Origin: a virus | DNA length: 41,101 nt | Reading direction: 5' to 3' (one strand) | Virus record (IMG/VR): IMGVR_UViG_3300050821_013813 | Span: 1 to 41,101 of that record | Shown here: piece by piece, positions 1,207 to 41,006 of the stretch | Layout of the letters: each line of letters starts with the position of its first letter | How positions within the stretch are numbered: position 1 is the first letter of the stretch | Made by a program: the position numbers and the translations under genes | The notes under the pieces: generated by a model | Databases searched by the model: none | Told to the model about the DNA's origin: nothing | The model's input: only the letters and a program-made list of their open reading frames with translations

Positions 1207-2073
1207 TTAGCGTGTCAACTTTTCGAGCGTCATACCGTAGTTATCAACGCTGTCGACGATCTCTACGCCTTCTTTACGCACAAGCTTAAGGTGATCAAAC
1301 TTCCGATAATTAGCGTGATGGTGTATGCGCCCGAATCGGCGAGTTAAGCGGCAGATGTCGGGATGCATCGCGACGATCATCTGCGATTTTACAGCTGTAC
1401 CTTTCGCATAGAGCTCGTCCGTATTGCCGCCTTTCATCTTCATTGTCGGCCCTTTGTCTTGCAAAAAAGCTCCGAACGAGACAGTACACCACCCAGCTTT
1501 GAGCATGCGGATCGAAAGGTCTGTATCCTCATTGTACCGACCTCTCCATCGCATCTGGACATCGTTCCGTATCAGAATACACGAATAGATCCTAGTGTTG
1601 AGCACGAATGGAGGTACCTTTTCCTTGCGTTTGACAAATTCATCGTAGGTCGGTCCGCCCTGTGCTACGTTGCTATATCGGTTGCAAAAATCTTCCATAC
1701 ATCTAAAGATCGTCCCGTCAGCAACCTTAAATTTCAGATTCTGACTTAGGCGCATAAATACTCTGATGTTGTCGTCAACGATCCAATGCCAAGAAGCGCC
1801 TTCCGATATAGCGTGATCCCAGACGAAATTCCGCGCTGGTCCCGAACCTTTGGACTGGCCTTCTGCTAGTACACAGCACGGATCATAGTCAGCTTGATAC
1901 TGCTTCTCGAGCACGAGAATTTTAGCCGGATCGATCACTTGGGAATAATTGCCGTATTCTTGCTCTTCGACGACAATACGGTACGGCACCTGCATTCGCT
2001 CGAATGCTTTGCTCGTCATCCGACTTTCCCAGCGTCCTTTCGAGATAATATAGACTGGATGCTTCGGATTCAT
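1207..2073 (-). CDS. TET/JBP-associated-type DNA glycosyltransferase (TAGT family), 288 aa
   Basis: The sequence shows the motif series I associate with the phage TET-associated glycosyltransferase family: YIISKGRW (8-15), ARNFVWDH (80-87), WIVDDN (97-102, the likely metal/sugar-nucleotide DxD equivalent), RGRYNEDTD (177-185), KGGNTDELY (214-222) and RIHHH (249-253). Members are predicted GT-A enzymes that add sugars to oxidised 5-methylpyrimidines in phage DNA. Its ATG overlaps the stop of the ParB-like gene (2070-2073), so the two are co-translated. No TET/JBP dioxygenase or cytosine-C5 methylase is recognisable in the window, so the acceptor base is unknown. Family assignment is strong; the target is inference. 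Confidence 0.8.
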   Translation of the reverse strand: MNPKHPVYIISKGRWESRMTSKAFERMQVPYRIVVEEQEYGNYSQVIDPAKILVLEKQYQADYDPCCVLAEGQSKGSGPARNFVWDHAISEGASWHWIVDDNIRVFMRLSQNLKFKVADGTIFRCMEDFCNRYSNVAQGGPTYDEFVKRKEKVPPFVLNTRIYSCILIRNDVQMRWRGRYNEDTDLSIRMLKAGWCTVSFGAFLQDKGPTMKMKGGNTDELYAKGTAVKSQMIVAMHPDICRLTRRFGRIHHHANYRKFDHLKLVRKEGVEIVDSVDNYGMTLEKLTR

Positions 2074-4469: not shown

Positions 4470-4582
4470 TGTACGGGCACAGTTCACGGCAGCGGGGTGA
4501 TCTTAGCACTTAGTGCCAGCGAACGGCAAGCCAATTTGAGGCGCGTTTGCCGTGCCTCCGCCGTATTGACTCACTGAAAGCC

Positions 4583-4906
4583 TTAAACGCGTTCCTGGTG
4601 GCGCCTGGACGCGGCAATGGGGATGTCTGGGGTTGGTTCAACCAGATAATGATAAAATTCTATCATCGGTTCGAGTTGGCGCTTAAATTTAATGCAAGTC
4701 TCTGCCGAGAGAAATTCCCTGGGCTTGGTTTTGAAGATGATACAAATCCGAAGAGCCAGTTTCACGCTCATTGGCAAGAGGCCGTTTTCAATTTGCTGGA
4801 TAGTTACCCCACTGACTCCGATTCGAGCACCAAAAGCCGGCTGACTCAATCCGAGCGAAGAACGGAAATTGCGCAACGGATGATAATAAGTCGGAGGCCG
4901 TGGCAT
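4583..4906 (-). CDS. XRE-family HTH regulator, 107 aa (paralogue of 38041-38376)
   Basis: A Cro/CI-type HTH lies at about residues 14-50 (FRSSLGLSQPAFGARIGVSG, then VTIQQIENGL), followed by a helical body (KLALRICIIFKTKPREFLSA). The start MPRPPTYYHPLR is chosen because it matches the paralogue at 38041. The two are nearly identical in protein over residues 1-85 and clearly alignable at DNA level, so this is a recent duplication. The C-terminal 18 residues (VEPTPDIPIAASR...) differ completely from the paralogue. It lies in an early leftward cluster; the function is presumably transcriptional control. Confidence 0.75.
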   Translation of the reverse strand: MPRPPTYYHPLRNFRSSLGLSQPAFGARIGVSGVTIQQIENGLLPMSVKLALRICIIFKTKPREFLSAETCIKFKRQLEPMIEFYHYLVEPTPDIPIAASRRHQERV

Positions 4907-4910
4907 AGTT

Positions 4911-8141: not shown

Positions 8142-9425
8142 TTAAGCAACCTTCCAAAGGATGATCTCTCGCGTTAGAACCAAACAGCGTTTGTTTGCCT
8201 TCGCCCATTCGACCATTTGCGCGTTGCACTGCTGGCTTTCGTAAGGAACACTGAACCGCATTTCGATCAGCAATTTCGACAATTTGACCAGCCGCAACAT
8301 GTCCCGAACGTGGTCCGTGAACTGGCGCTCCGGCGCATTCCATTGCGTTGGTTGAATAATTAGCGCGATGTAGGCATCGCTGAGTTTTCTGGCAAAGCTA
8401 GTAACCAGCGAAACTAGCCTTTTATTAAATTCCGGCAATTCCATGTTGCCAAAATCTGTCGGATCCTTGCTGTATTGGCCTTTGGCTTGATGCCAGTAAG
8501 GGGGATCGAGATAAACTAGCTTGACGTCTTTCCAATTGTGCAGTTTCGGCAGACCATCGGTCACATCATGCAACCTGATATCTTTTTCGCGCTCCGGCTC
8601 AATCTTACGGTCACTTACCCAATAGCGGCGCATTCGTTTCTTACACAAGTCGATCGTCGAACCGCCGCCAGCGAACGGATCAACCACGATGTCGAACGGT
8701 TTCGTGTAGAGATACAGCAGGTTATCGAGCCAACGGACCTCGCTATTGCCGAAGTGATTGGAACCATTGGACTTCTTTTGCTGCTTCCAGACGTTATAAA
8801 GCGGCACCTCAAACCCATCCTCTTGATGCAAAGCAGTAGGTTTTAGTGATTTTTGCAAATCTGCATTTTCCACTAAAACCTCGCTAACCGTATGCTGATC
8901 ACACCCGCACTCCTCGGCGATCTCTTCCTGGGTCCGGCAGGCGAGCCAAAGTTGGAAGATCCGTTTATTGCGCGCTGCTTTGCTATCCTTATCAATCCGA
9001 CCCAACCAATCATAGATTGTTCTTTCGCTGACAGATAAGATTTTCGCTAGATGCGCTTTTTTCCCTTCTCTTTCTTTAGCTGGCGTGCTGTTATAAATCT
9101 TGCGCGCTAAGTCAGCTTTCTCATCTGGGCTTAGTTGAAGCCCATGCTTTGCATTACGGACAATCGCCAGCTCTAAAATGTGCGCATCACTCTTTGTCTT
9201 AGTGACCTTTACGCGAATTGTCGGAACCCCTGCTTTTTTATGCGCCAGCCAGCGGTGCTTGCCATCAATTGCCTCATTATGCTGGTTAATTTCGATCGGC
9301 GGCAGAACATCCAGATCAGCCGCATATTTTTGTACAGTCAACACATCGATTTCGTGCCGCGGATAAACATCCTCACGGAACACAACGCTCTCTATCGCAA
9401 GTTCGTGCGTGCCATTTGATTCCAT
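8142..9425 (-). CDS. ParB-HTH-DNA methyltransferase fusion, 427 aa
   Basis: Residues 10-95 are a ParB-like domain with DGKHRWLAH (54-62). Two HTH segments follow, one at about 122-144 (KKAHLAKILSVSERTIYDWL) and one at 162-184 (RTQEEIAEECGCDQHTVSEV). The C-terminal half is an N4-cytosine/N6-adenine methylase with the SAM motif DPFAGGGST (249-257) and the catalytic DPPYW (307-311). The SAM motif precedes DPPY, the alpha/gamma-like order rather than the beta order. No C5-cytosine motif is present. It modifies phage DNA, probably as protection or as a regulator. It precedes the nuclease-like gene with no gap. Confidence 0.85.
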   Translation of the reverse strand: MESNGTHELAIESVVFREDVYPRHEIDVLTVQKYAADLDVLPPIEINQHNEAIDGKHRWLAHKKAGVPTIRVKVTKTKSDAHILELAIVRNAKHGLQLSPDEKADLARKIYNSTPAKEREGKKAHLAKILSVSERTIYDWLGRIDKDSKAARNKRIFQLWLACRTQEEIAEECGCDQHTVSEVLVENADLQKSLKPTALHQEDGFEVPLYNVWKQQKKSNGSNHFGNSEVRWLDNLLYLYTKPFDIVVDPFAGGGSTIDLCKKRMRRYWVSDRKIEPEREKDIRLHDVTDGLPKLHNWKDVKLVYLDPPYWHQAKGQYSKDPTDFGNMELPEFNKRLVSLVTSFARKLSDAYIALIIQPTQWNAPERQFTDHVRDMLRLVKLSKLLIEMRFSVPYESQQCNAQMVEWAKANKRCLVLTREIILWKVA

Positions 9426-12157: not shown

Positions 12158-12176
12158 AATACGACTAAATCGTAAC
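12158..12176. promoter_or_regulatory. 19-bp operator-like element, copy 1
   Basis: AATACGACTAAATCGTAAC here is the exact reverse complement of 12385-12403. It has TACGA/TCGTA arms around a 5-bp centre. It sits 20 bases upstream of the Sak4-like ATG, and the flanks add a GGTTAC/GTAACC inverted pair. It is a likely operator for a local regulator; the RHH protein encoded between the two copies is the obvious candidate. Confidence 0.6.
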
Positions 12177-12180
12177 CAGC

Positions 12181-12408
12181 TTAAAGATTTTCAACGTTTA
12201 TCTCGTCATTCACGAGCCGCCGAACGTATTGGGACACAGTTAGGTGCAGTTGTTCGGCTCTTTCCCTGATCAGCGGTCTCATATCAATTGGCAGACTTAT
12301 CGAAATTTTTGAGAAAAGGGGCCCACCAAAGAGAGCGTGTTCCTTCTCGCCGATGGCTTGGATTGGCACTTTTTTCTTTTTCACGTTACGATTTAGTCGT
12401 ATTGTCAT
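12181..12408 (-). CDS. Ribbon-helix-helix regulator, 75 aa
   Basis: A basic N-terminal arm (NRNVKKKKVP), then the RHH strand KISISLPIDM and two helices (RPLIRERAEQLHL, TVSQYVRRLVNDEI). It probably represses its own region: one 19-bp element overlaps its first codons and an identical inverted copy precedes the ATPase gene just downstream. The start lies three bases from the divergent GTG at 12412, so promoter sequences must overlap coding sequence. Confidence 0.75.
   Translation of the reverse strand: MTIRLNRNVKKKKVPIQAIGEKEHALFGGPLFSKISISLPIDMRPLIRERAEQLHLTVSQYVRRLVNDEINVENL
12385..12403. promoter_or_regulatory. 19-bp operator-like element, copy 2, with rightward -10-like sequence
   Basis: GTTACGATTTAGTCGTATT is the inverse of copy 1. 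Read rightward, GTCGTAT lies nine bases before the GTG start of 12412, the same spacing as in the right-end promoter at 40198-40213. The element therefore may be both an operator and part of a leaderless promoter. It overlaps codons 2-8 of the RHH gene on the other strand. Confidence 0.55.
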
Positions 12409-32765: not shown

Positions 32766-33548
32766 CGTATTTTCCTCACTTTTATCGTCATCCGCCGACG
32801 CTGCGATTTTCATTTTTCGTTCTCGAAAAGCCGGATTATTGGTTAAGGAACCGACTTCACCCGTCTTCGGTAACCCGGCAATCTGGCCTTTGTCGTTCAA
32901 AAGAAACGTCGGGGAAAAATAACTGTGTCCGCGGCCTTGCACAGCTTCCTCGCCCGGCTTAGTCCAATCCACTTCCAGAATCACCCCACGCTCTTCGTCC
33001 CAACGAAATTCCTTAGGCAAAAACGAAGCGGCGCCTACCTTGTGATCGAACCCAGCATACGGCCGAACCGGATCATCGAGTCGTTTGGCTAAGTCTCCCT
33101 GCAGAGCTTCCGCGACGCTCGCGTCAACCTTCAACGTAACAGCTTTAGCTTTGCCGCCGACCATCGGCGTAATCGTCACCGAATCAGCTTTCGGCATGTA
33201 GACAATCTCAGAGGGCGTTTCCCCACCAAGGTCAATCGGCACACTGGCGTAGACTAGGGCAGATTCAGCTTTATCCTTTTCGCCGCCATCGCCATCGTCG
33301 CTAGTCCCGATCCCTAGCTTCTTAGCCGCCGCACGGATCCGCCCACCAATCGTCTTTTGATCTTCCGCCGAATACTTATCCCGATTCTTGGCTTGACCCC
33401 AGTAGCTGAGCGCTGCGCGCACATGGGCCTCGGTGTCGATGGGGTATTTCTTATTCTTCTCGTCGGCAAATTTCACATCACCATATTTGCCCTTCCCTTC
33501 CCCTGGCGAAGTGTCCTCGCGCTTTTCGATTGCCATTACCGTTTTCAT
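32238..33548 (-). CDS. Mu gpI-like protease/scaffold protein with N-terminal DUF6582-like segment, 436 aa
   Basis: The N-terminal KYGDVKFADEKNKKYPIDTE, then AHVRAALSYWGQAKNRDKYS, is a DUF6582-like module. The middle (YAGFDHKVGAASFLPKEFRW, VDWTKPGEEAVQGRGHSYFS, PTFLLN) is a Mu gpI-type capsid-maturation protease. The C-terminal 175 residues, helical and Glu/Ala/Lys-rich (MIKVAEKLVELEVITAEQAD...), are a scaffold. An internal ATG at 32765 preceded by GAGG could make scaffold alone, as Mu makes gpZ from gpI. Confidence 0.8.
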   Translation of the reverse strand: MKTVMAIEKREDTSPGEGKGKYGDVKFADEKNKKYPIDTEAHVRAALSYWGQAKNRDKYSAEDQKTIGGRIRAAAKKLGIGTSDDGDGGEKDKAESALVYASVPIDLGGETPSEIVYMPKADSVTITPMVGGKAKAVTLKVDASVAEALQGDLAKRLDDPVRPYAGFDHKVGAASFLPKEFRWDEERGVILEVDWTKPGEEAVQGRGHSYFSPTFLLNDKGQIAGLPKTGEVGSLTNNPAFRERKMKIAASADDDKSEENTMIKVAEKLVELEVITAEQADDEALVINAVVGMHEALGLSQAANARLVSENTALQAKVADVQKAEATSVIEAAIAEGKIGSKDKDSIAFFTAQLIASPETTKKVLASMPANPLLQKVIDVKVSDTKRVAGGTSAADLVQAQHLAIAEVQEAHPGLNYTDAFNKARREHPEIFPVEA

Positions 33549-34054
33549 TTCTGTTTATCCTTTAAAGTTTTACTGATCCCCCGAAGTTTAGCCCGCAACT
33601 CAATCACAACGCGCACAGCTTCATTAACTTCCAGATCGCCTATAAGCTCATCGATGGCCTCGTGAAGACTCTTTGGATAATCTTTGCCCCATTCAGGATT
33701 ATTGAGAACCTTCCGACAATGAGTCTCGTATTCGAATCGGGTATAGGGCGTTTCATAGTCCCGACTGCAGACCCATGAATGCGATTCAGTGTTCCAGCAC
33801 GCGCCTAAAAAAACTTCTAAATTTTCCCGATCGACATCATTCAACACGCGCCGATTAGCCTCAATCGCCGCAATGGCTACGTTTGGAATTCTTGCAGCAT
33901 CAGCAAACTTACGTACCGAAATTTGTTTAAATCTTTTGCCCAAAATCTGGCGCAATTGACGTAGTTGACTTGAATAATCGTCATTCTTAATGGGGTCTGC
34001 CTGATCGCCAAATGGCGTGGGAACGATATTTAAGGCTGTGTTGGCGTGTTTCAT
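33545..34054 (-). CDS. XRE-like HTH protein within the head genes, 169 aa
   Basis: Residues 25-85 (SSQLRQLRQILGKRFKQISV, RKFADAARIPNVAIAAIEAN, RRVLNDVDRENLEVFLGACW) resemble the Cro/CI HTH layout of the 4583 and 38041 proteins, with additional C-terminal helices (SLHEAIDELIGDLEVNEAVR). ATGA overlaps link it to genes on both sides, so it is transcribed with the late operon. A third XRE-type gene among structural genes is unusual; a regulator of late expression is possible. Confidence 0.55.
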   Translation of the reverse strand: MKHANTALNIVPTPFGDQADPIKNDDYSSQLRQLRQILGKRFKQISVRKFADAARIPNVAIAAIEANRRVLNDVDRENLEVFLGACWNTESHSWVCSRDYETPYTRFEYETHCRKVLNNPEWGKDYPKSLHEAIDELIGDLEVNEAVRVVIELRAKLRGISKTLKDKQK

Positions 34055-37931: not shown

Positions 37932-37978
37932 TTTCGGGGCAGGAGACTCTTGCTCCCGACATTGGCTTGCGACAATAT

Positions 37979-38031
37979 GCGCCAAATTGGCGCTTGACAA
38001 GCAGGAAAAGCACTCAGTGCCAATTTGGCGC
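37979..38031. promoter_or_regulatory. Pair of 15-bp palindromic sites
   Basis: GCGCCAAATTGGCGC (37979-37993) and GTGCCAATTTGGCGC (38017-38031) share one core, with centres 38 bp apart. They lie in the gap between the XRE gene and the coiled-coil gene. A TTGACA lies between them at 37994. This is the usual form of a dimeric repressor's two operators; the neighbouring XRE protein is the natural candidate. Confidence 0.55.
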
Positions 38032-38040
38032 CTACGCGCT

Positions 38041-38376
38041 TTATTCCTCCTCGCCTTGGAAGGTGACCGGCTCAAGGCGTTGCCCCGGCTCGTCGGTGAG
38101 TGCCTCCCCGTCCAGATAATGATAAAACTCTATCATTGGTTCGAGTTGGCGCTTAAATTTACGGCAAGTCTCTGTAGAGAGAAACTCCTTTGGTCGGGTT
38201 TTAAAGACGATACAAATGCGAAGAGCCAGTTTCACGCTCATTGGCAAGAGGCCGTTTTCAATTTGCTGGATAGTCATCCCACTGACTCCAATTCGAGCAC
38301 CAAAGGCCGGTTGACTCAATGCGAGCGAAGAGCGGAAACTGCGCAATGGATGATAATAGGTTGGAGACCGTGGCAT
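38041..38376 (-). CDS. XRE-family HTH regulator, 111 aa (paralogue of 4583-4906)
   Basis: Starts MPRSPTYYHPLRSFRSSLAL. Residues 1-85 are nearly identical to the 4583 protein, including the HTH (LSQPAFGARIGVSGMTIQQI) and KLALRICIVFKTRPKEFLST. Its last residues RLEPVTFQGEEE copy the TerL C-terminus (QLEPISFQGDEEGE), and the DNA of the two ends is similar too. It lies seven bases after terL. It is probably a mobile or duplicated regulator cassette inserted at the terL 3' end. Confidence 0.75.
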   Translation of the reverse strand: MPRSPTYYHPLRSFRSSLALSQPAFGARIGVSGMTIQQIENGLLPMSVKLALRICIVFKTRPKEFLSTETCRKFKRQLEPMIEFYHYLDGEALTDEPGQRLEPVTFQGEEE

Positions 38377-38383
38377 AATAGCT

Positions 38384-39796
38384 TTACTCGCCCTCCTCAT
38401 CGCCCTGGAAACTGATCGGCTCAAGCTGTCGCCCGACGTTAAATTCGTTGTGCGGCAGGTAAATGCCCGCTAACTGTTCCCGGGTCACCCCGCCCAGCCC
38501 GCGGCAGTACAGCGCGCCAAAGATCGCATCCGCACGGTCCGGCGACTTGAGCCCGCGAGCCGCCATCTTGTCTTTCGACTCAGCCATCAGCCGCATTTTG
38601 CTGTCGTAATCGCGCCGGCGCGTGGTCGCCTGCCGAAAGAAAATCGCGTCATCCGGCAGGATGATTTCCCTCTTTAAGATTCGTTTGGCGCATGAATACC
38701 AAATCTCGCTGCCCCGATTGCAATAGTGATCCTCGTCAGTTGCCGGTGCGCCGTTGTTAACCGCCGTAATCCGCCAACCCATTTCGGCCAAGTAAGAAAT
38801 CATCACTGTGCCCAGCCCACCTTCATCGCCGTGAATCTCTGCCGGCACTAAACGCATCCTCTGAAATTCAGTGATGAAATCCTTACATGCCCGGATCGGG
38901 TCGGTATCGCGCCAGCACCGAATTAGGTCGACCTTGTTGCCATCGGCAATGGCAATCACGTTCTCATCGCCACCGGCCGCAAAGTCGCAGAAGGCCGCAC
39001 GGCTCGCTGGCTTGTGTTCAATCTGAGCCTCCAGACACGCGCGTAATGAGCCAGCCGTGATAAGCAGCCCTGGGCCGTCCTCGTCCATGAACTCGCTGAA
39101 ATGCATGGACCGGAAATCGGGATCGTCCTGTGGGTAAAGGCGGCAATCGCGCTCGTACTTTTCGCGTAAGTGCGGACACTGGCCGCTGGTCACCCGCCGC
39201 GTGAAATACTCCCCTGAGAGCGAATGGAAACATTCAAAGAACCGGCCAAACGGACCGCCAGCACTCGAACAGATAAACCGGTACTGCGCCGTACACCGGT
39301 CACTGGCCGTGTAAATGCCGTCATCGACCCCTTTGCCCTCGTCGATGATGTACATGCAGGGGGCCTCAGGCGTGCCGTGGTTGCCTTCCGCGCGCCGGCT
39401 ATCGTTGGTGCTGAACAGGAACGCGCGGCCGCCTTCCGGCGTATGGATCCGCATCGCAGGCCAATCCCAGCTCGGGAACCTGGCCTGATGCTCTAACAGC
39501 GCTGGCCAAAGCTGCTGCTCGAGCTGGGTCCAGCTGCCGCTTGTCACCGGGACCAACCCACGTGGGAAGTAGAACAACAGCCACAAAATTGCCGGTGCCA
39601 CGATTTTGCGGGTCTTGCCGCTGCCGTTTGCCGCGGCTAGCGCGGTCGGGATGCCCTGGCCGATCGCTTGGAGGGTCAATGCCTGCCACGGATAAAGATC
39701 CACGCCCAGAAAGGCAATGGCGAACTCCCAGGGGGATATTACGCCGGGCGGGTACTGGAAGTTGAGGTCAAGCCGGCGCGCGATCGACGTGGTCAT
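38384..39796 (-). CDS. terL: Terminase large subunit, 470 aa
   Basis: The ATPase has AANGSGKT (55-62, Walker A) and MYIIDEG (148-154, Walker B). The RNase-H-like nuclease has CDFAAGGDE (270-278), HGDEGGLG (322-329) and SPDRADAIFGA near the end. The start MTTSIARRLDL at 39796 is chosen because the previous small gene's TGA overlaps it as ATGA. It packages phage DNA into the portal. The probable small subunit is at 800-1201. Its C-terminal QLEPISFQGDEEGE is duplicated in the XRE gene. Confidence 0.95.
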   Translation of the reverse strand: MTTSIARRLDLNFQYPPGVISPWEFAIAFLGVDLYPWQALTLQAIGQGIPTALAAANGSGKTRKIVAPAILWLLFYFPRGLVPVTSGSWTQLEQQLWPALLEHQARFPSWDWPAMRIHTPEGGRAFLFSTNDSRRAEGNHGTPEAPCMYIIDEGKGVDDGIYTASDRCTAQYRFICSSAGGPFGRFFECFHSLSGEYFTRRVTSGQCPHLREKYERDCRLYPQDDPDFRSMHFSEFMDEDGPGLLITAGSLRACLEAQIEHKPASRAAFCDFAAGGDENVIAIADGNKVDLIRCWRDTDPIRACKDFITEFQRMRLVPAEIHGDEGGLGTVMISYLAEMGWRITAVNNGAPATDEDHYCNRGSEIWYSCAKRILKREIILPDDAIFFRQATTRRRDYDSKMRLMAESKDKMAARGLKSPDRADAIFGALYCRGLGGVTREQLAGIYLPHNEFNVGRQLEPISFQGDEEGE

Positions 39797-39972
39797 GGCG
39801 TTTTTTGGCTGGCGGCGTCCGTCTGTTCCAGCACTGCGCGAGCCGCAGCCTCCCAAGCTAACTGGATATGTCCGGGAGACTCCTCCCAAGGCGGCAGATC
39901 ATAGCCCTGAAAACTGGTCCAGTTGACACAAGGACAATACGCTTCGTAAGCGATTTGGCCGGGAGTTTTCAT
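39793..39972 (-). CDS. Small AYEAY-type phage protein, 59 aa
   Basis: MKTPGQIAYEAYCPCVNWTS, then GYDLPPWEESPGHIQLAWEAA, is a paralogue of 17046-17216. It is the first leftward gene and precedes terL by ATGA overlap. It starts four bases from a copy of the right-end 21-bp element, so its promoter is shared with or divergent from the rightward genes. Confidence 0.65.
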   Translation of the reverse strand: MKTPGQIAYEAYCPCVNWTSFQGYDLPPWEESPGHIQLAWEAAARAVLEQTDAASQKTP

Positions 39973-39975
39973 TTT

Positions 39976-40020
39976 GAAAAAGTAGTTTAAGTTTATTCAA
40001 GACTGGTCGTATATAAAGGT
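39976..40020 (+). promoter_or_regulatory. Right-end promoter element, copy A
   Basis: 21-bp element beginning GAAAAAGTAGTTTAAG (39976-39996, one change from copies B-D), then GGTCGTATATA with a -10-like TATATA at 40010-40015. The ATG at 40021 is only five bases further on, so the transcript would start at the AUG. The opposite strand may drive the late genes. Confidence 0.6.
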
Positions 40021-40143: not shown

Positions 40144-40167
40144 CCGGCTCCTGCCGGTAGCATTATT

Positions 40168-40213
40168 GAAAAAGTTGTTTAAGTTTATTCTGAATAGGTC
40201 GTATAATATGAGT
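40168..40213 (+). promoter_or_regulatory. Right-end promoter element, copy B
   Basis: 21-bp element beginning GAAAAAGTTGTTTAAG (40168-40188), then GGTCGTATAAT with a perfect -10 hexamer TATAAT at 40202-40207. Six bases later is ATG 40214, so leaderless transcription is expected. The -35 is weak (TTTAAG at 18-bp spacing), so an activator at the 21-bp element is likely. Confidence 0.7.
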
Positions 40214-40398: not shown

Positions 40399-40424
40399 GG
40401 GCTACTTCGGTAGCCCTTTTTTTT
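40399..40424 (+). terminator. Rho-independent terminator with UUCG loop
   Basis: GGGCTAC (40399-40405), loop TTCG, GTAGCCC (40410-40416), then eight T. This is a textbook terminator that ends the 40214 transcript and isolates the next gene. Confidence 0.9.
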
Positions 40425-40436
40425 GGTTTAATTTCT

Positions 40437-40484
40437 GAAAAAGTTGTTTAAGTTTATGGGGAGCCGGTCGTTATGGATAGTACA
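40437..40484 (+). promoter_or_regulatory. Right-end promoter element, copy C
   Basis: The same 21-bp element (40437-40457), followed by GGTCGTTATGG; the -10 is weaker than in copy B. It precedes ATG 40485 of the signal-peptide gene. Confidence 0.55.
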
Positions 40485-40954: not shown

Positions 40955-40973
40955 ATAAACCGGTTGCTTCTTT

Positions 40974-40994
40974 GAAAAAGTTGTTTAAGTTTAT
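40974..40994 (+). promoter_or_regulatory. Right-end promoter element, copy D
   Basis: Fourth copy of the 21-bp element (identical to B and C). The GTCGTAT part is absent; an AT-rich TTTTAAATAA follows before ATG 41007. Confidence 0.55.
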
Positions 40995-41006
40995 TTTAAA
41001 TAAGCA

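Follow-up and report, generated by a model that had tools for sequence, protein, structure and literature searches.

A second copy of the terminase tail at the end of an XRE regulator gene placed behind terL in a tailed phage

Some elements, e14 in icd among them, enter a protein gene at its 3' end by att recombination and leave the end of that gene doubled. Additions of other kinds are outlined in PMC3029335: in that account, morons are typically an open reading frame (ORF) with a flanking promoter and terminator, and MPME1 is a 439-bp element with inverted repeats and a 6-bp addition.

We analyzed the IMG/VR record IMGVR_UViG_3300050821_013813, a stretch of 41,101 bases from a tailed phage whose portal and protease genes are Mu-like (hereafter the window, meaning the whole stretch). 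In it, the gene of a small helix-turn-helix (HTH) regulator, XRE-1, lies directly behind the gene of the terminase large subunit, terL, and ends in a second version of the TerL C-terminus (Table 1). As in elements of the e14 type, there are two versions of the gene end, and an equivalent of the original ending remains on the target gene, but here the insertion measures 343 bp and is devoid of an integrase, and the inserted gene reads in frame into the second tail. XRE-1 is the sole gene of the insertion, which encodes no recombinase, and an integrase-like gene is found elsewhere in the phage (14234-15421). Like the morons outlined in PMC3029335, XRE-1 is one extra ORF between conserved genes, absent from the same place in a relative and, in our case, of deviant GC content; in contrast to that outline, its core starts at the ATG, has neither promoter nor stop of its own, and is accompanied by a duplicated end of the neighboring gene. 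The resemblance to the mycobacteriophage elements MPME1 and MPME2, described in the same account, lies in a very small insertion facing an empty relative. The differences are that terminal inverted repeats on the XRE core are not above chance (scores of 6 and 8, against shuffle maxima of 10 and 11) and that its two copies in the window are 10% apart; a target duplication is present at terL and absent at the site of the second copy. No published case of a terL tail copied into a regulator emerged from a literature search covering titles and the beginnings of abstracts. We regard the finding as the mosaic insertion of a gene that comes with a doubled target end and an unusual captured tail, a fairly ordinary kind of phage gene shuffling.

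Table 1. Positions in the window of the two XRE genes, terL, the tail copies and the neighboring promoter elements
Feature	Position	Strand	Description
XRE-1	38041-38376	-	HTH regulator, 111 aa
XRE-2	4583-4906	-	XRE-1 paralogue, own 19-aa tail
Core common to both XRE genes	38112-38377 / 4642-4907	-	266 nt, 90% identity
terL	38384-39796	-	terminase large subunit, 470 aa
Proximal terL tail copy	38384-38434	-	GRQLEPISFQGDEEGE stop; TerL end; contiguous with terL body
Distal terL tail copy	38041-38085	-	GQRLEPVTFQGEEE stop; present XRE-1 C-terminus
Linker between core and tail copy	38086-38111	-	GC 0.73; residues DGEALTDEP
Promoter-operator block (putative)	37972-38031	-	TTGTCA-17-TATTGT plus palindromes; homologous block behind L003 terL without XRE
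Palindrome GCGCCAAATTGGCGC	37979-37993		in block behind XRE-1
Palindrome GTGCCAATTTGGCGC	38017-38031		in block behind XRE-1
GCACTCAGTGC	38010-38020		in block behind XRE-1, 21 nt from XRE-1 stop
GCACTTAGTGC palindrome	4506-4516	.	67 nt behind XRE-2

The two XRE genes share a core that starts a single base ahead of the ATG and runs through codon 88, with 79 of the 88 residues identical as read off the alignment, and with 16 synonymous and 11 non-synonymous changes (dS 0.325, dN 0.056). An earlier note on this DNA had described the proteins as nearly identical over 85 residues. Outside the core, the DNA on either side of XRE-1 is unrelated to that around XRE-2, and XRE-2 has a different tail (VEPTPDIPIAASRRHQERV), as that note had also stated. 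The third-position GC content of the cores (0.46 and 0.49) contrasts with that of terL (0.72). The Pfam families HTH_31 and HTH_3 match XRE-2 above their curated cut-offs (E 4e-7 and 5e-6) and XRE-1 slightly below them (E 3e-5 and 6e-4), and XRE-1 joins XRE-2 in the XRE/HTH_3 domain group through its 90%-identical core; XRE-1 also matches phrog_8, a transcriptional regulator family, at E 7e-5. AlphaFold2, run on XRE with a two-row alignment, returned five helices at a mean pLDDT of 50, with residues 93-111 without structure, a model of insufficient quality for comparing folds. No confirmed XRE relative and no further copy of the core were found in viral_contigs, either by single-protein or by two-row alignment queries, or in genome_contigs. 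Tblastn gave a best E of 4e-3 among the best 20 of 82 phage records, and seven plasmid records were matched with a best E of 7e-4 at 39%. The XRE profile had no match in PDB at E≤0.01, a weak HTH match only was obtained in PADLOC, and distant blastn searches of phages with the DNA of the whole insertion gave no match.

Both genes follow closely on another one: 7 nt separate the XRE-1 ATG (38376) from the preceding TerL stop (38384), the spacing reported in the earlier note, and XRE-2 starts 4 nt behind the stop of its upstream ORF. Given these gaps, XRE-1 is probably translated along with terL, and XRE-2 along with the ORF preceding it. An AGGAGG within the proximal tail copy precedes the XRE-1 ATG.

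The final 15 codons of XRE-1 correspond to the end of TerL. At the DNA level, the two tails align without gaps over 38394-38434 (TerL) and 38045-38085 (XRE-1), with 33 of 41 nt identical, so that the correspondence already seen in the earlier note stands, although the stretches that it aligned, 38384-38423 and 38041-38077, need a slight shift. Tails this short and of skewed composition, both acidic, might in principle resemble each other by chance or convergence, and the RQLEP motif within XRE itself scores no better than chance (8, against a resampled mean of 7.8). However, the tail alignment score of 25 was equaled by none of 5000 codon shuffles (maximum 23) and by none of 2000 Markov resamplings of the 151-nt flanks; when the TerL tail was scanned over both strands of the whole window, the XRE-1 tail was the best non-self match, followed by the next independent one at 17. 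The distal tail and the promoter block behind it moreover form a contiguous 130-nt homology to the terL end of a related phage, L003 (record IMGVR_UViG_3300046375_000049), where the XRE gene is missing, and we consider a chance resemblance to be wholly implausible. Within the insertion, GC content changes in sharp steps: it is 0.46 in the XRE-1 core, 0.73 over the 26 nt of the linker, and 0.60 for the tail copy, the latter being also the value of terL.

The search of viral_contigs with TerL gave five loci, and an alignment query six, one of which was new (L021). TerL is 91% identical to that of L003 and 71% identical to that of L004, and its nearest annotated relatives by tblastn are terminases of Akkermansia phages (35-42% identity). 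These matches are only a hint of a Verrucomicrobiota host, and a search of genome_contigs with terL for a host found nothing. The annotated neighbors of terL in two Akkermansia phages include no named regulator.

In L003, a single TerL tail (GRQFETVSFQGEEE) leads straight, without an XRE gene, into a promoter block homologous to the one behind XRE-1. Window positions 38393-39782 match 3716-2327 of L008, the first part of the L003 record, at 85%, and positions 37947-38075 match 3813-3685 at 82%, so that both window tails map onto the same L003 tail. Judged from these alignments, L003 is the empty site, and, with homology on both sides, the stretch in between is a gain of the window lineage that consists of the XRE core and a second TerL tail, 343 bp from stop to stop; the stop codon of XRE-1 is, on the same comparison, the former stop codon of terL. 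Seen against this natural empty site, the case indicates how an essential packaging gene can take up an extra gene at its end and lose nothing: the target tail exists in two copies, and the newcomer obtains from it a stop codon and a C-terminus. The earlier note had proposed just such an insertion, and had counted a relative with a single terL tail and no XRE gene as evidence to the contrary; L003 is a relative of this kind, and also the empty site that an insertion predicts. The tail copy may also, as the note further proposed, have restored the terL frame. Both copies are open and each is contiguous with its homologous flank, which for the distal copy is the former downstream DNA of terL, and either may be the new one.

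The other relatives show different arrangements. L004 and L005 have terL tails of other types, and L027 has a different terL end with a methyltransferase gene directly behind it; the region on the 3' side of terL is thus frequently altered. An XRE gene was found in none of five terL relatives at E≤1 and in neither of two primase relatives at E≤10; these seven records, to which L021 does not belong, are or may be fragments, and an XRE gene elsewhere in those genomes is possible. For XRE-2, we found no relative of the upstream ORF that could provide an empty site. L024 and L025, considered for this role, have a related primase and no XRE, and were set aside for their non-homologous intervening ORF (BLASTP E 5.5). 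A search of phages with the promoter block and distal tail gave only two matches, both at E 0.5, which we attribute to chance.

The XRE core occurs twice in this genome, with the same boundaries in otherwise unrelated surroundings; each copy comes right after the stop of an ORF and ahead of one of the sole two exact GCACTNAGTGC sites of the window (at 21 and 67 nt). This might point to the core as a minimal mobile cassette that would move in trans, settle behind an ORF and before an operator promoter, and take its C-terminus from the target. However, neither inverted nor direct terminal repeats exceed those of shuffled sequences, no duplication flanks XRE-2 (score of 10, against a resampled mean of 10.1), the insertion is without a recombinase, and neither viral_contigs nor genome_contigs yielded a further copy. 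We consider such a cassette very unlikely, and a cassette that brings the tail along, or a transposon-like unit, finds no support in a core that lacks terminal repeats and a second site that lacks a duplication. The observation of the earlier note was right and its interpretation, partly supported, was right in outline. Since terminal repeats, a recombinase and a second-site duplication are all lacking, illegitimate or unequal recombination appears to be the simplest cause.

We favor, as the probable course of events, an illegitimate or unequal recombination in the window lineage, later than its separation from L003, that placed the XRE core in the 3' end of terL. The core would have arrived as 88 codons without promoter or stop, and about 45 nt of the terL end would thereby have been doubled. 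The proximal copy would now be the end of TerL, and the distal copy, joined to the former downstream promoter block, would have become the C-terminus of XRE-1, with the old terL stop as its own. XRE-1 would be read with terL across the 7-nt gap, translation of the two probably being coupled, while XRE-2 would be read with the ORF upstream of it across the 4-nt gap. Tail homology, core homology, flank identities and the empty site are what we observe; the recombination route, the order of events and the mode of expression are what we infer from them.

Concerning the order of events, 45 codon-anchored tail columns were compared, with L003 as the one relative whose tail is close enough. The proximal and distal copies differ from each other at 9 columns, the proximal copy from L003 at 6 and the distal copy from L003 at 11; four columns separate both window tails from L003, seven separate the distal copy and two the proximal one. 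Two of the four (ACG to CCG and TTT to TTC) are polarized by the outgroup L004, which by eye sides with L003 against the window copies, and they weakly suggest a duplication after the split from L003. The dS between the XRE genes amounts to roughly half of the value for the terL body in the comparison of the window with L003 (0.671), which also agrees weakly with a duplication after this split, both values being rough clocks with few sites.

The same columns contain a difficulty for a duplication in place, as the proximal tail is nearer to L003 than to its supposed twin, and the 11 differences of the distal tail from L003 would also fit a tail from another phage. A possible though clearly less probable alternative is a fusion of two phages, in which a phage with terL followed by XRE and a second phage recombined at the 3' portion of XRE; the crossover would lie just upstream of the second parent's terL tail, and the distal tail would be the end of that terL. 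In addition to the greater distance of the distal tail from L003, such a fusion would agree with the conservative nature of its residue changes, with the presence of the GC-rich linker, and with mosaicism at this very spot, as in L027. On the other hand, we found neither a phage that carries this XRE gene behind terL nor any terL with the distal tail (DGEALTDEPGQRLEPVTFQGEEE), and a degenerate LEP.(S/T)FQG plus acidic pattern had no match in viral_contigs; the two columns that both window tails share, by eye, against L003 and L004 also speak against it. When the seven distal changes were simulated, residue changes this conservative had P 0.009 when scored with BLOSUM62 and P 0.09 when the changed residues were counted. 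Either the distal tail has been preserved at the protein level, or its divergence dates from its time in a terL, or this is small-sample chance.

All residue changes in the distal tail are conservative, which is compatible with a working TerL peptide in XRE-1. In other phages, the terminase tail may dock on the portal or procapsid. It is conceivable, though very improbable, that the TerL C-terminal peptide is still at work in XRE-1, so that the regulator would compete with the packaging motor or report its state; late transcription would then be linked to packaging through a shared terminase-docking tail. If the tail were functional, this would be a case of a regulator capturing the C-terminal peptide of a motor.

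The exact pattern of the putative promoter behind XRE-1 matches only the L003 record in viral_contigs. Exact GCACTNAGTGC palindromes occur in the window only at the two sites downstream of the XRE genes, against 0.03 expected under a first-order Markov model, and none of 300 simulated sequences had two. Sites with one mismatch (three in the window) are not unusual, 7 of 100 shuffles having as many. Of the two GCGCCAAWTTGGCGC-like palindromes in the XRE-1 block, one is exact and one has a single mismatch; at up to three mismatches the window holds three, no more than chance. Among the relatives, GGCACTNAGTGC sites are present in four of eight records (L003, L004, L021 and L027) and absent from L005, L006, L007 and L025. 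An arrival of the palindromes together with XRE was considered and dropped, because XRE-free relatives have such sites. As L003 has GGCACTNAGTGC at the homologous place without XRE, that site at least predates the XRE gene and normally answers to another regulator. The placement of both XRE genes before such promoters suggests that they act on them, and our guess is that the XRE proteins are small Cro-like regulators of the palindrome promoters just behind them. No promoter or terminator belonging to XRE itself was identified: the minus-strand promoter-like match near XRE-1 lies behind the gene, and the sole terminator-like match in its vicinity is on the plus strand.

In L027, a GGCACTCAGTGCC palindrome (9174-9186, minus strand) stands just before TATTGT, upstream of the terminase genes, at the place occupied by GCGCCAATTTGGCGC in the window promoter; the two possibly belong to a phage-wide set of putative promoter operators. 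A promoter-like element, TGAAAAAGTTGTTTAAGTTTAT, occurs four times in the window (39962-40004, 40154-40196, 40423-40465 and 40960-41002), each copy ahead of a small plus-strand reading frame, and the L003 record matches some of them.

Among the head genes, a 169-aa gene (33545-34054, minus strand) has an HTH-like stretch by eye and no Pfam or PADLOC match; its counterpart position in L003 holds a 92-aa ORF. A perfect 19-nt inverted repeat (12158-12176 and 12385-12403) surrounds a small gene, with its arms 208 nt apart. Finally, the gene at 1207-2073 (minus strand) encodes a TET-associated glycosyltransferase (TAGT, E 2e-41), adjoins a gene for a ParB-like protein and perhaps takes part in DNA base modification.
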